Assembly (NCBI GenBank): GCA_944391815.1
Contig: CALXUV010000030.1
Coordinates: 1 to 52,964 of the forward strand
DNA: 52,964 nucleotides
Direction of reading: 5' to 3'
DNA from: an uncultured Clostridia bacterium
GTDB lineage: Bacteria > Bacillota > Clostridia > Oscillospirales > CAG-272
The position numbers were made by a program, and so were the translations under genes. Shown piece by piece: positions 7,262-10,548 of this stretch. The notes beneath the pieces are model-generated. The model saw only the letters and a program-made list of their open reading frames with translations. It did no database searches and had not been told where the DNA came from. Every line of letters begins with the position of its first letter. Position 1 is the first letter of the stretch.

Positions 7262-7535
7262 AAAAAAAGCCCTCTGAAAATCAGAGGGCGAAAAACCGCT
7301 GTACCACCTCAGTTCACCGCATTTTCACAAATACGGCATCAATAAGCAACATAACCGACAGTGCGGAAATAATGCTCTCCGATATAACGGTCGGGACCGT
7401 GCTTACCTACTTGATTCAGTGAGCATGCTCGCGAAATGTATTCGCACACATACCGCTTACCGTCTTTCACCGACCGACGGCTCTCTGAAAGCTACCGATG
7501 TGCACTACTTGTTTCCGGTCAACGCATCTGGAGTG
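7262..7535 (-). promoter_or_regulatory. T-box riboswitch leader (predicted tRNA-Tyr specific)
   Basis: Read on the minus strand, the leader has the stem I motif AGAGAG...GGTCGGTGAAA, an AGTA loop-E element (7506-7509), the T-box GAGGTGGTACAGCGG (near 7296-7310) and a terminator hairpin of CCCTCTGA arms followed by T's (7263-7290). The specifier stem GTGCACAT/ATGTGTGC pairs fully, and GAA-UAC follows it, placing specifier UAC at 7438-7440. The bulge UGGU fits a tRNA with discriminator A, as in tRNA-Tyr. Uncharged tRNA would stabilise the antiterminator and switch on the symporter. Confidence 0.88.
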
Positions 7536-7571: not shown

Positions 7572-7642
7572 TTTTGAAAAATCCAAAAAAAAGGTTTTGA
7601 AAAATCCAAAAAAAAGGTGTTTTTGAAAAATCAAAAAAACGG
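7572..7642. repeat. Three tandem ~23-bp A/T-rich repeats
   Basis: The unit TTTTGAAAAATCCAAAAAAA plus GG occurs at 7572 and 7595, and a slightly altered copy lies at 7620-7642. The array sits between the T-box promoter and the tRNA-Arg promoter. It could be an upstream (UP-like) element or a slippage product. Confidence 0.75.
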
Positions 7643-7736
7643 TTTGTTATCTCGATGTATCGGACTTCGTTTTAAGAGGAAAAAGATAAAAAGAAAAGGA
7701 AAGCTGAAAATCACAAAAAAATTGAATTCAGGTACT

Positions 7737-7765: not shown

Positions 7766-7849
7766 CAAAGGATAGGTGGAAACAAGATAAATCTTTGTTA
7801 TTTTGAATATCGTGGGATATAAGTTCTTGCCTTCCTCGAAACGGTATAT

Positions 7850-7926
7850 GTTTCCGTAGCTCAGTTGGATAGAGCGACCGCCTCCTAAGCGGTAGGTCGG
7901 GTGTTCAAGTCACCTCGGGAACGCCA
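7850..7926 (+). tRNA. tRNA-Arg (CCU)
   Basis: This 77-nt cloverleaf includes an encoded CCA. Acceptor GTTTCCG pairs with CGGGAAC, the anticodon arm ACCGC-CTCCTAA-GCGGT gives anticodon CCU, and the T-loop is TTCAAGT. The 3' 45 bp (7882-7926) recur exactly at 10451-10495, so this gene is the integration target of the adjacent mini-island. The insertion left the tRNA intact. Confidence 0.96.
7882..7926 (+). repeat. Attachment-site repeat, tRNA copy (45 bp)
   Basis: It runs from CTCCTAAGCGG in the anticodon loop to the CCA end and is identical over 45 bp to 10451-10495. This is the expected footprint of site-specific integration into a tRNA 3' end. Confidence 0.92.
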
Positions 7927-7936
7927 GATACAGTTC

Positions 7937-7960
7937 AGGCGGTCAAACTGACCGCCTTTT
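7937..7960 (+). terminator. Terminator after tRNA-Arg
   Basis: GGCGGTCA and TGACCGCC arms with a 3-nt loop are followed by TTTTG, 12 bp past the tRNA. Confidence 0.88.
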
Positions 7961-8030
7961 GTCTTACAAAGGAGCTACAATGAAAATGAATGTTGAAAAG
8001 TTCCCTATGTCCTATATTTTAGGGAATTTA

Positions 8031-8240
8031 TTGACATTTAACCCTAAATGTGATATACTGTATTCGCTACACGAATCGCATAACTTTCAAGAAGAGTGCG
8101 CATTTTTACTTGTGGTAAAAATGCATACTCACTTTTCTGCGTTCTCTTATGAAAGTAGCAAAGATTTGTTTAGCAACAATTGGAGGTGCGTTTTTTGTGC
8201 GTCGGCTCCGGTCGGCGCACTTTTTGATTTTGGAGGCACT
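8031..8240 (+). promoter_or_regulatory. Promoter and structured leader of the DUF2971 gene
   Basis: TTGACA (8031-8036) and TATACT (8054-8059) are 17 bp apart. The ~170-nt leader contains a perfect 10-bp hairpin (GCATTTTTAC/GTAAAAATGC around 8098-8122). Just before the gene is an 8-bp hairpin GTGCGTCG/CGGCGCAC followed by TTTTTG (8197-8225), which looks like an attenuator. The same reading frame as DUF2971 is open across the leader, but the promoter and ribosome site show the gene starts at 8241. Confidence 0.75.
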
Positions 8241-8244
8241 ATGA
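8197..8244 (+). CDS. Possible 15-residue leader peptide overlapping the attenuator hairpin
   Basis: GGAGG at 8182 precedes GTG at 8197 by about 10 nt. The short frame (MRRLRSAHFLILEAL) ends TGA at 8242-8244, overlapping the DUF2971 ATG as ATGA. The ORF runs through the terminator-like hairpin, so its translation would melt that hairpin. A chance ORF cannot be excluded. Confidence 0.4.
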   Translation: MRRLRSAHFLILEAL

Positions 8245-9092
8245 TTAACACTGAAAACAAAGAATCGACCAATTTAAGCAAAGTTTCCACACCACAAGAA
8301 CTCATATCCTATCTTTCTTCAAACGATAGAGTAGATTCATCAAAGCAAGTCTATCACTACACACGATTAGCATCCATTTTAAGTATTATTAAAAGTGGTT
8401 ATTGGATCGTGCGTTCTCCCAAAGGCATGAATGACAGTTTTGAATATCAAAATTGGGATGAAAGTGATTGGAAAAATATATTTTTCATAAGCTTCATGTC
8501 GGAACAAAAAGAAAATATTGGTATGTGGAGCTTATATGCACAGCCATGGACTACCGGAGTCAAAGTATCTATTGATGCCAAAGCGTTTAAAAATTGGATA
8601 AAAAACACCAAAACAATTTATAAAGCTAATCCCGAAACATTTGAAGTGTACGAAAACGTTGCATTCACCGTTGGAGAAAATGCCAAAATCAAATATGCTG
8701 CAGTAGCATACTCCGATTTTGAATCACACAACGAATCGACTACGGAACATATTCATGTAGGCGGAGCGAAGAACGATGCGTTAAAGGTTGCTACTGGTGT
8801 TCCAACACTTGCCGGATACATAAAAAACGATGCATGGGATTATGAGAAAGAAGTTAGATTGCGAATTGACATAGATCGTAATATCGAATGTGAGGCTGTG
8901 GCAATAAAATTAACAGAAGAAGTAATTGATGCTATTACAATAATAAAAGGCCCTCGATTTAATGGTGATTTGCAAAAAGCTATTGAAAATGAACTTAAGA
9001 AAGCTATCCCTAACGGCGCAAGTCTATTTTTTGATAGAATTGCATCCATCCCCTGCGACAACTGTAATCACGAAGGAAGGAATAAATCATGA
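8241..9092 (+). CDS. DUF2971 domain protein
   Basis: This 283-residue protein with no signal peptide or membrane segment is soluble. The N-terminal part has the DUF2971 hallmark YHYTRLASILSIIKSGYWI (~residues 34-52), then SPKGMNDSFEY and SFMSEQKENIGMWSLYA. The C-terminal half contains GYIKNDAWDYEKEVRLRI. The family is widespread and scattered, often on mobile elements, and its activity is unknown to me; a role in phage response is only suspected. The start at 8241 is set by TTTGGAGG seven bases upstream. It overlaps the next small ORF by ATGA. Confidence 0.85.
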   Translation: MINTENKESTNLSKVSTPQELISYLSSNDRVDSSKQVYHYTRLASILSIIKSGYWIVRSPKGMNDSFEYQNWDESDWKNIFFISFMSEQKENIGMWSLYAQPWTTGVKVSIDAKAFKNWIKNTKTIYKANPETFEVYENVAFTVGENAKIKYAAVAYSDFESHNESTTEHIHVGGAKNDALKVATGVPTLAGYIKNDAWDYEKEVRLRIDIDRNIECEAVAIKLTEEVIDAITIIKGPRFNGDLQKAIENELKKAIPNGASLFFDRIASIPCDNCNHEGRNKS

Positions 9093-9367
9093 AACAAATT
9101 AAAACAGTATCCATAATTGTAGCAATAATGCTTATGATGCTTGCATTACCAATGGGAATTACCGCCACGGCAGCAACATCTATCATGGCTGCGTTCACAA
9201 TATGCTACACGAAAAGAGCGAAGATATTTTGCGGGAACTGTATAAATCTGCCTCTTTCGTTGTACAGGCAATTGCTTTCAAGCAAACCGGAAACTATATC
9301 AGCCATCAAAAAGAATTGCTCCAAGTTATATCTTCCGATGAACGGGGCATTGTCGAAACCTTTTTGA
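9089..9367 (+). CDS. Small membrane/secreted ORF, probably chimeric or truncated
   Basis: This 92-residue ORF is coupled to the DUF2971 stop by ATGA. Residues 1-30 are a signal-peptide-like segment (SIIVAIMLMMLALPMGITATA). From about residue 34 the DNA is the coding region of another gene read in a different frame (see 9202-9456), so the C-terminal two-thirds is unlikely to be a real domain. It looks like the start of a lost secreted or membrane protein joined by deletion to a fragment. Expression is possible through translational coupling. Confidence 0.4.
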   Translation: MKQIKTVSIIVAIMLMMLALPMGITATAATSIMAAFTICYTKRAKIFCGNCINLPLSLYRQLLSSKPETISAIKKNCSKLYLPMNGALSKPF

Positions 9368-9456
9368 ATTTGAAAAATGGCGGAACGGTAGATTTCAATT
9401 TGATGTCCCAAACATTGTTTGCTTGGTCAAAGAAATGGATTTCTGAAAACCGATAA
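9195..9456 (+). pseudogene. C-terminal remnant, possibly of a nucleotidyltransferase/HEPN-type protein
   Basis: An 84-residue frame from ATG 9202 reads as a helical domain (ILRELYKSASFVVQAIAFKQ then FNLMSQTLFAWSKKWISENR) with no ribosome site of its own. The frame is open upstream without a usable start, so the N-terminal catalytic part seems lost. The sequence resembles helical C-terminal domains of small nucleotidyltransferases; that identification is tentative. Confidence 0.4.
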
Positions 9457-9458
9457 AC

Positions 9459-9473
9459 AAATTCCAATTTAGC
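9459..9473 (+). repeat. 15-bp direct repeat, copy 1
   Basis: AAATTCCAATTTAGC directly follows the stop region of the remnant. An identical copy lies at 10185-10199 after the XRE gene, so the two bracket that gene. Confidence 0.8.
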
Positions 9474-9577
9474 GGTCAATTTTCACTCTACCAACGGTTT
9501 ACTTCTCCTCACTAAACCAATGGTGGGTGTGTTTTCTCCTCATAATTATCTATACTGAATGCGAAAGGAGGCAGTCT

Positions 9578-10186
9578 ATGAACCAAATTAAAATCGGAAG
9601 ATTTATTGCCGAGTGCAGAAAAAAGGCAAACTTAACGCAAATGCAGTTGGCAGAAAAACTGGGCATCACCGATAAAGCAATATCCAAGTGGGAACGCGGC
9701 TTGGCAATGCCCGATACTTCGATAATGCTTGAACTCTGTGATATTCTTTGCATCAGTGTAAACGAATTATTAAGTGGGGAGAAAATCAATATGGAAAACA
9801 ATAATCAGAAAAACGAACAACTTTTGCTTGATATGGCGAAAGAATTAGAGAAGAAAAACAAAACTATTTGGAATGCAATGTGGATAATCATGACAGTGAG
9901 TATCCTTGGATTGATCGGAGGTCTCGCGATCATCGCCTTTTTTATGCCTGAGGGGCCATGGATGCTCGTTGCAATACTTTCACTGTGCGTGGTGTTCCTT
10001 ATACCGTGTTTCTATGCGTTAAAGCTTGAAGTCAACGTGGGGGCTTATAAGTGCAAAAATTGCGGCTACGAGATCGTACCTACCTATAAGCAGGCACTTA
10101 ATGCGATGCATAGGGGAACGACACGGTATTTAAAGTGTCCGAAATGCAACAAGCGTACTTGGTGCAAGAAAGTATTGAAGAAGTAA
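9578..10186 (+). CDS. XRE-family regulator with two membrane segments and a C-terminal zinc ribbon
   Basis: In this 202-residue protein, residues 3-60 form an XRE/Cro helix-turn-helix (LTQMQLAEKLGITDKAISKW is the recognition region). A charged linker rich in Asn/Glu/Lys follows, then two transmembrane helices (~105-128 and ~133-150). The C-terminus is a treble-Cys zinc ribbon with CKNCGY and CPKCNKRTWC. The start at 9578 is set by AAAGGAGG seven to ten bases upstream. Such membrane-tethered XRE proteins are common beside stress, transport or element-borne genes and probably sense a membrane or metal signal. Target genes are unknown; the DUF2971 promoter in the same island is a candidate. Confidence 0.85.
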   Translation: MNQIKIGRFIAECRKKANLTQMQLAEKLGITDKAISKWERGLAMPDTSIMLELCDILCISVNELLSGEKINMENNNQKNEQLLLDMAKELEKKNKTIWNAMWIIMTVSILGLIGGLAIIAFFMPEGPWMLVAILSLCVVFLIPCFYALKLEVNVGAYKCKNCGYEIVPTYKQALNAMHRGTTRYLKCPKCNKRTWCKKVLKK

Positions 10187-10199
10187 ATTCCAATTTAGC
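10185..10199 (+). repeat. 15-bp direct repeat, copy 2
   Basis: It is identical to 9459-9473 and overlaps the final bases of the XRE gene. The island remainder (10200-10450) has no gene, only small stems such as ACTCGGT/ACCGAGT near 10221-10240. Confidence 0.8.
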
Positions 10200-10450
10200 A
10201 AAGCGAGTTAATTAAATAAAACTCGGTAACAGACCGAGTGAAAAGCGATTAAATAAAGGTATCTTGTGGGAATATAACCGTTTCCCTAAATCCGAACCCC
10301 TTGCTAATTCCTATCTAATCAGACCGCTAAAAACGGGGTAAAATTAGCAGTAATTCCGTAACACAGCTTAACACTCAAAGTGCGAAAAAGCCTTGAAAAT
10401 ACGGGATTATCGGGTACAGGAAGTGACTCTACAACCGAGTTTCGAGGTCA

Positions 10451-10495
10451 CTCCTAAGCGGTAGGTCGGGTGTTCAAGTCACCTCGGGAACGCCA
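10451..10495 (+). repeat. Attachment-site repeat, distal copy (45 bp)
   Basis: It exactly duplicates the 3' 45 bp of tRNA-Arg, including CCA. The 5' half of the tRNA and its promoter are missing here, so it cannot be a functional tRNA. Confidence 0.93.
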
Positions 10496-10497
10496 AG

Positions 10498-10548
10498 AAA
10501 ATCGGCTGTTCCAAATGCTTTAAATTTGCATTTGGAGCAGCCGATTTT
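10498..10548 (+). terminator. Bidirectional terminator
   Basis: Long arms (AAAATCGGCTG...CCAAATGC with GCATTTGG...CAGCCGATTTT) are T-rich on both outer sides. It probably was the original tRNA-Arg terminator before the island inserted, and it also serves the convergent QueD-like gene. Confidence 0.85.

Follow-up and report, generated by a model that had tools for sequence, protein, structure and literature searches.

The 52,964-nucleotide stretch analyzed here (the window; contig C30 of genome G000, an assembly of 2.35 Mb in 81 contigs that is 94.5% complete) carries, inserted in a tRNA-Arg(CCU) gene, a mini-island whose body spans positions 7927–10450. This segment is a real, horizontally acquired, integrase-less island. 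It is probably a small non-autonomous integrative element: a deletion derivative akin to the cis-mobilizable elements (CIMEs), a "hitcher" that would be movable only with a helper integrase. An earlier note on this DNA had described an integrase-less island in tRNA-Arg with perfect 45-bp repeats, and the tRNA prediction, the repeat scan and the integrase searches reported here all agree with that description.

ARAGORN places the tRNA-Arg(CCU) gene at 7850–7926 on the plus strand. Its 3′ half (7882–7926) is the left attachment repeat, attL, and a displaced tRNA 3′ half on the same strand at 10451–10495 represents attR, as defined by the 45-bp repeat and by a comparison of 18 loci. In the repeat scan of the window both copies form a direct repeat of 45 nt, 100% identical, with a spacing of 2569. 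The anticodon-loop sequence CTCCTAAG is present at only two sites on the plus strand of the window, both within these repeats. The repeat is beyond chance because the identical boundary was found again in other genomes, the sequence past it differing. The Pfam scan of the four plus-strand open reading frames (ORFs) of the island detected no integrase, and none of three integrases used as tblastn queries matched the window. The family PF00589 (Phage_integrase) has six matches in the G000 genome, none of them on contig C30.

The last 266 bp of the island body (10185–10450, plus strand) constitute a right-end module common to integrase-bearing elements and to other mini-islands, with an arm-like GCTAAT at 10303 and an ATTAGC at 10343. 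The 45 bp preceding attR are identical in G024, which belongs to another genus. The 37-base right end is found, exact, in 14 contigs of a species-level genome collection, including Ruminococcus, Neglectibacter and Diplocloster records, and CTCCTAAG follows it directly in 14 of 14. We compared 18 loci, 15 with the exact GTCA-type end and three with a diverged GGTAT tip (G024 and G327 are not among them). The next 46 bases after the right end are all different: 17 correspond to tRNA-Arg(CCU)-like 3′ halves, assigned by sequence, and one to the start of a tandem element. One end with differing continuations at CTCCTAAG is the pattern left by a site-specific crossover in the anticodon loop. Pairwise identity of the module among 11 GTCA-type members is 99.1% in the last 114 columns versus 84.7% in the first 159. 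A DNA search of a phage collection gave one match (152 bp, 70%) at the very start of the faecal contig MT837101.1, which corresponds to a diverged right end plus tRNA 3′ half; a plasmid DNA search with the island also gave a single match, the 45-bp tRNA.

Upstream of the same right end, directly or with cargo between, one tyrosine integrase (461 aa; PF00589, E 5e-19) is encoded in 5 of the 14 contigs, which supports insertion by a tyrosine integrase, to which the earlier note had ascribed such repeats, here at the tRNA anticodon loop. G557 and G562 encode the integrase in full, the contig start truncates it in G551 and G552, and in G560 it is shortened. Eight contigs are uninformative on the integrase, as their start lies too near the right end or within cargo (L106, L108, L109, L110, L112, L113, L115 and L117), and the last one (L107, from G554) contains a complete island without integrase. 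Two related integrases (72 and 67% identity) from faecal contigs labelled as phage lie 0.7–0.8 kb ahead of a tRNA-Arg-like 3′ half; two others (52 and 47%), also from faecal contigs labelled as phage, are on contigs without CTCCTAAG. As a separate observation, in G099:C53 (L165) the same right module (86% identity) is immediately preceded by an only distantly related 433-aa integrase; it looks as though one integrase had replaced another.

Two features of the island body bear on its origin and on its movement. The first is a junction near position 9173. The start of a secreted-protein-like gene (identified by reading; 9089–9172, plus strand, within ORF 9089–9367) is truncated there and fused to a remnant (9173–9456, plus strand; ORF 9202–9456), the C-terminal part of a nucleotidyltransferase-like gene (family name by reading). 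The remnant matches G005:C17 and G003:C235 at 80–81% DNA identity, and in these genomes the gene is intact (ORFs of 239 and 225 aa). Judged from its sequence, this fusion is an internal deletion in the window island. The second is the island of G554, an Oscillospiraceae metagenome bin, which is 99.4% identical to the window over positions 7800–10503. From 8205 to 10450 both copies differ at 2 positions, and the run continues unbroken into another tRNA 3′ half, followed at the right junction of G554 by core genes (mnmE, mnmG, pth and mfd by reading of the ORFs). The best match by E-value of the 10-kb G554 flank to the genus of the window is 67% over 611 bp, and to G000 67% over 506 bp. The same deletion junction together with this distant flank means that one integrase-less body is joined to two distant chromosomes. 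G554 also encodes, on a short contig (G554:C33; L144 1501–3000), a 461-aa integrase which is 49% identical to the family integrase and is followed by seven GCTAAT/ATTAGC copies within 150 bp, near the contig end. Given this relative and its motif cluster, G554, which hosts the twin island, may possess a helper integrase of that kind.

The window island is not the only small one. The module pattern matches 5 of 394 sampled genomes of the order (G000, G380, G440, G550 and G099), and four of these five (G000, G380, G440 and G550) carry bounded islands without integrase and with differing cargo; minis with the same module occur in other families of the order. The G380 island (1.33 kb) encodes one GNAT acetyltransferase, that of G550 (1.39 kb) one 250-aa ORF without family, and that of G440 (2.15 kb) a hydrolase-like protein and DUF6796. 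Islands with ends of another type were found as well. In G196:C22 (L084), two integrase-less islands lie in tandem at tRNA-Arg(CCU), the first (1.5 kb) with a single Fic gene (Pfam) and the second (5.1 kb) with LysR, flavodoxins and an aldo/keto reductase, identified by eye. A 3.4-kb island in G048:C4 (L079 6467–10021) encodes an AAA_15 ATPase, a 141-aa protein and an excisionase-like protein, and retains a stretch like the C-terminal tail of an integrase (56% over 59 residues). Related small islands with changed cargo, which the earlier note had recommended searching for, are hence represented by G380, G550, G440, G196 and G048. The tRNA-Arg(CCU) 3′-half pattern is present in 54 of 196 genomes of the family, and at least two copies within 10 kb on one contig were found in two of them, the window and G196.

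Three of the islands share an architecture with integrase-bearing kin. In G562, G551 and G552, which bear the integrase, a conserved promoter-like stretch comes after the integrase terminator, and the cargo and then the right module come next. In G380, G550 and G440, a GCTAAT-rich left-arm block leads to the same promoter stretch, other cargo and the same right module, and their match to the integrase-bearing kin starts inside the integrase terminator; the cargo slot of G557 is empty. Promoters and terminators were assigned by reading in this comparison. The integrase-tail stretch of G048 and the start of the three-mini match within the integrase terminator point to integrase loss by deletion, and the arrangement suggests, for these minis, a deletion between left arm and slot, with changing slot content. 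The window island is a looser member, with the right module and the attachment sites only, a promoter and leader of its own and no left-arm block.

One promoter region and one right module around different cargo, both with integrase (G562, G551 and G552) and without it (G380, G550 and G440), and the empty slot of G557 would also fit a trans-mobilized cassette system. Each mini would then retain left arms, a fixed promoter and a fixed right end, with AAATTCCAATTT repeats at the borders of the cargo slot; one or two genes would be swapped at a time without any loss of mobility, and the integrases of full-size elements would spread the cassettes among Clostridia. AAATTCCAATTT (at most one mismatch) does flank, on both sides, the cargo of G380 and the XRE gene of the window. 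We nevertheless hold such a system to be quite unlikely. Neither that promoter nor the left arms are present in the window copy, and no cargo-exchange recombinase was identified; repeated ordinary recombination could look alike. AAATTCCAATTT is absent around the cargo of G551, G552 and G550 and is found on one side only in G562, and a wider scan with a looser motif of this type gave 11 matches versus 5.4 expected. As a general cargo border, AAATTCCAATTT is accordingly weak. A fixed promoter–cargo–end slot, if true, would account for the travel of single genes, such as the aminoglycoside adenylyltransferase gene in some kin, on very small elements. In the integrase-bearing G562 (L161 8855–10549), two genes occupy the slot: an ANT(6) aminoglycoside adenylyltransferase gene and one resembling a nucleoside phosphorylase.

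The island is apparently not part of the core of its genus, because right-module matches are missing in the congeners and the tRNA of G002 is uninterrupted. Among the matches listed, none of six congeners has the right module, and only fragments elsewhere resemble the island (for four of the six, only 40 first-look candidates were scored). The same arrangement in all relatives, which the earlier note had named as refuting evidence, was hence not encountered. G002, the closest congener, has an identical uninterrupted tRNA with a similar promoter and no island, and no second tRNA 3′ half in 19.6 kb downstream. The genes to the right are different; the QueD and Fur genes of G002 are on another contig, and the 763 bp before them are without tRNA or matching fragment. 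Of the empty tRNA-Arg(CCU) site that the note had asked for, the uninterrupted identical tRNA was obtained, and the match on its right side was not. Identical repeats, from which the note had argued for a recent insertion, are by themselves a weak sign of recency, because the tRNA half is presumably under selection and the tRNA of G002 is identical without any island. The idea that the whole tRNA gene of the window is element-borne was rejected: upstream there is neither a 5′ half nor a further CTCCTAAG, and G002, with the same tRNA, a similar promoter and no island, also rules it out. Elsewhere, six loci (L074, L081, L082, L095, L153 and L156) have elements by which the native tRNA-Arg(CCU) seems to be split, its 5′ half remaining upstream; a full tRNA-Arg(CCU) that replaces it was apparently brought along, behind a spacer of ~55–90 nt. 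In G043 (L083 8069–8308), tandem tRNA-Arg(CCU) 5′ halves with ~80-nt spacing precede the full gene.

The reading that we prefer can be put as a sequence of steps. Members of the family that bear the tyrosine integrase would insert through a crossover at CTCCTAAG, in the anticodon loop of tRNA-Arg(CCU). The ancestor of the window island presumably had an integrase near its right end. An internal deletion would have spared the left junction, the right-end module and a few cargo genes, the integrase probably being lost in that same deletion. Later movement would then have depended on a helper integrase acting either in trans or, if encoded by a neighbouring element, in cis.

Several observations weigh against a mobilizable island. 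The twin contig of G554 begins 64 bp upstream of the tRNA, in sequence resembling the window flank, and 8 of the 10 differences between the twins are concentrated in the leftmost 16% of the stretch compared (P 1e-5). Because 64 + 77 gives 141, the k-mer size in the name of a sister record, these lengths suggest a branch of the assembly graph exactly at the tRNA end of the twin. Since its left flank is window-like and the differences cluster on the left, the left part of the twin may have been assembled from mixed sequences; its right junction appears reliable. The G000 assembly has no close relative of the 461-aa integrase (best match 30% identity), and in the G000, G380, G440 and G550 assemblies the closest protein is at most 34% identical or no match was obtained. 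This leaves the integrase in trans invoked by the earlier note without a close relative in the window's own host, the second host, G554, having the 49% one. The left-arm block was not found in the G551, G552 and G557 assemblies and, used as a query against G560 and G562, matched at its promoter end alone, so that the left ends of the minis cannot be traced to the elements of these five genomes. The GCTAAT left-arm block that G380, G440 and G550 have is without a counterpart in the window copy, and the other GCTAAT/ATTAGC copies of its island are only at 8366 and 8625, within the DUF2971 gene. Because these left-arm repeats are missing, the window copy may by now have lost its mobility. The module is also rare: in a class-level sample it was detected in 1 of 391 genomes, the window's own. 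Two first-look candidates were scored per genome in that search and in one further genome-sample search, in which matches of only 21–57 bp (E 8e-6 to 1e-3) excluded 13 of 19 genomes from the count, and in which G327 is truncated by a contig end. Lastly, an exact empty counterpart in a genome of the same species was not found, the right side of G002 being different.

The missing left arms, the gene remnants, the lack of a close integrase relative in G000 and the window-like left end of the twin would all suit a dead remnant, that is, an autonomous element that inserted once, decayed in place and never moved after losing its integrase, the G554 copy being an assembly mixture or a product of homologous recombination. 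We regard this as unlikely, given that the stretch from 8205 to 10450, with its two differences, runs without a break into a different tRNA 3′ half and core genes, and that same-module minis are found in other families of the order.

A non-autonomous element of this kind has counterparts among known systems. According to the available text of PMC7563491 and PMC5704250, CIMEs of Streptococcus are decayed integrative and conjugative elements or integrative mobilizable elements (ICEs, IMEs) which retain att sites, the classical ones being 1.2–13 kb long. The former paper refers to 215 CIMEs, solitary or in tandem, at a tRNA-Lys gene, and the method of the Streptococcus survey, as that text describes it, detected CIMEs only in tandem with another element and not solitary ones. 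Like CIMEs, the window island has attL and attR, is small, carries cargo, lacks integrase and transfer genes and lies at the 3′ part of its target gene. Its 45-bp repeats are predicted attachment sites with an end common to integrase-bearing elements, and no integration or transfer gene was found by Pfam of the four ORFs, tblastn or the PF00589 genome search. With respect to retained sites and lost genes, the window element appears to work like a CIME. As for its origin, the junction near 9173 and the shared module support a deletion, from a source that may have been an ICE, an IME or an element of another class; the contigs of the integrase-bearing elements examined end before their left ends. 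The island has no integrase of its own, which sets it apart from IMEs and ICEs, whose own integrase is accompanied by relaxase or conjugation genes. Unlike CIMEs as these papers present them, the tRNA-Arg(CCU) family shares one right-end module with integrase-bearing elements, three of its minis have a promoter–cargo slot, and the tRNA-Arg(CCU) anticodon loop serves as target. The window has no ICE or IME in tandem, the PF00589 search of contig C30 having detected no adjacent integrase-bearing element.

Dehalococcoides ssrA islands, 15 of which lack an integration module and have been proposed to be cis-mobilizable, are likewise described as bounded by repeats of an RNA gene 3′ end, with variable cargo; they involve a serine recombinase and the tmRNA gene, whereas the window family involves a tyrosine integrase and a tRNA (PMC3146451, in the text available). 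Clusters of attC sites lacking integrases (CALINs) and miniature inverted-repeat transposable elements (MITEs) are treated in the accessible part of PMC11389934 as hitchers of integrons and insertion sequences, respectively. The resemblance lies in short non-autonomous DNA that retains the recombination ends of a recombinase-encoding helper; unlike them, the window element would move through the att sites of an integrative element. Integron cassettes and CALINs have attC sites on which an integron integrase acts. The repeat scan of the window gave no terminal inverted repeats, and the cargo borders show only a 12–16-bp repeat at some sites, attC not being searched. Islander-type islands also have an intact tRNA gene and a displaced 3′ fragment at their ends, with an anticodon-loop crossover class. 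Because Islander, as presented in the available text of PMC4383910, requires an integrase within the island, integrase-less islands like that of the window are filtered out by its design. No publication naming this tRNA-Arg(CCU) family was found in titles and abstract beginnings among the matches listed, subscription literature lying mostly outside that search. With one 266-bp end, solitary integrase-less islands of distant hosts can be recognized along with their likely helpers, and the spread of such islands, a long-standing question, becomes testable with a defined integrase and att pair.

The remaining parts of the island are its promoter, leader and genes. A sigma-70-like promoter (TTGACA-17-TATACT, by reading of the sequence; 8031–8059, plus strand) lies ahead of a structured leader (8066–8225, plus strand), whose fold comprises a closing stem (8066–8077/8163–8174) and a terminator-like hairpin (8197–8220) with a T run. 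The closing stem pairs in six of six loci of differing sequence (the window, L070, L071, L072, L073 and L158; strands chosen by eye), with two-sided changes at 3 of the first 9 positions and one mismatch in the window copy. The six leaders sit upstream of unrelated genes. Rfam searches at E 1 and E 5 returned only matches below the cut-off and one tRNA, none of them a credible match to the leader. The DUF2971 gene (8241–9092, plus strand) has an ATG after GGAGG and matches PF11185 above the cut-off (E 3e-7; scanned as ORF 7959–9092); an NCBIfam search with its protein gave no match. Beyond the two gene remnants, AAATTCCAATTTAGCG (9459–9474, plus strand), identified in a search of 841,124 bases of loci, duplicates the first 16 bp of the right module and differs at one position from the start of the module in the window. 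Because of this second copy at 9459, the arrangement suggests that the XRE gene was added beside an older module start. That gene (9578–10186, plus strand) encodes an HTH_3 (XRE-type) protein, the HTH being assigned by Pfam and two hydrophobic or membrane segments and CxxC pairs being read from the translation. The cargo listed in the earlier note (a DUF2971 gene, remnants and a membrane XRE/zinc-ribbon regulator) is in agreement with these results. Homologues of the HTH_3 gene (72–78% DNA identity) are plain chromosomal; a lone mobile cassette made of this gene was rejected, as the homologues are in ordinary chromosomal settings with no common border.

The earlier note had also considered that size and cargo fit a satellite or mini-defence island. 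Such an island would be packaged, or selected for an anti-phage function, and a defence island would carry demonstrated defence genes or close homologues of them. The DUF2971 protein has a weak similarity to the PADLOC candidate PDC-S31 (best E 5e-7), a weak hint of a defence role; among kin, the Fic cargo of G196 matches SoFic and the G048 ATPase matches AriA and related ATPases in PADLOC. Phage satellites (phage-inducible chromosomal islands and kin) carry their own integrase together with replication, packaging or capsid-interference genes. The four scanned island ORFs contain no packaging, capsid or replication family, the cargo proteins of G380, G550 and G440 have no PADLOC match at E 0.01, and the exact 31-base right end had 0 matches in the viral contigs scanned. 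We judge a satellite or defence island to be highly improbable.

Outside the island, the left flank comprises a sodium:solute symporter gene with a T-box leader, and the right flank QueD-like (PTPS) and Fur genes. An imperfect palindrome at 10498–10548, probably a terminator, lies between attR and the converging QueD-like gene and matches its own reverse complement at 85% (own-genome search). The stretches 7281–7531 and 7572–7643 contain the T-box leader, which lies upstream of the symporter gene on the minus strand, and three near-copies of a 23-nt repeat that adjoin it.

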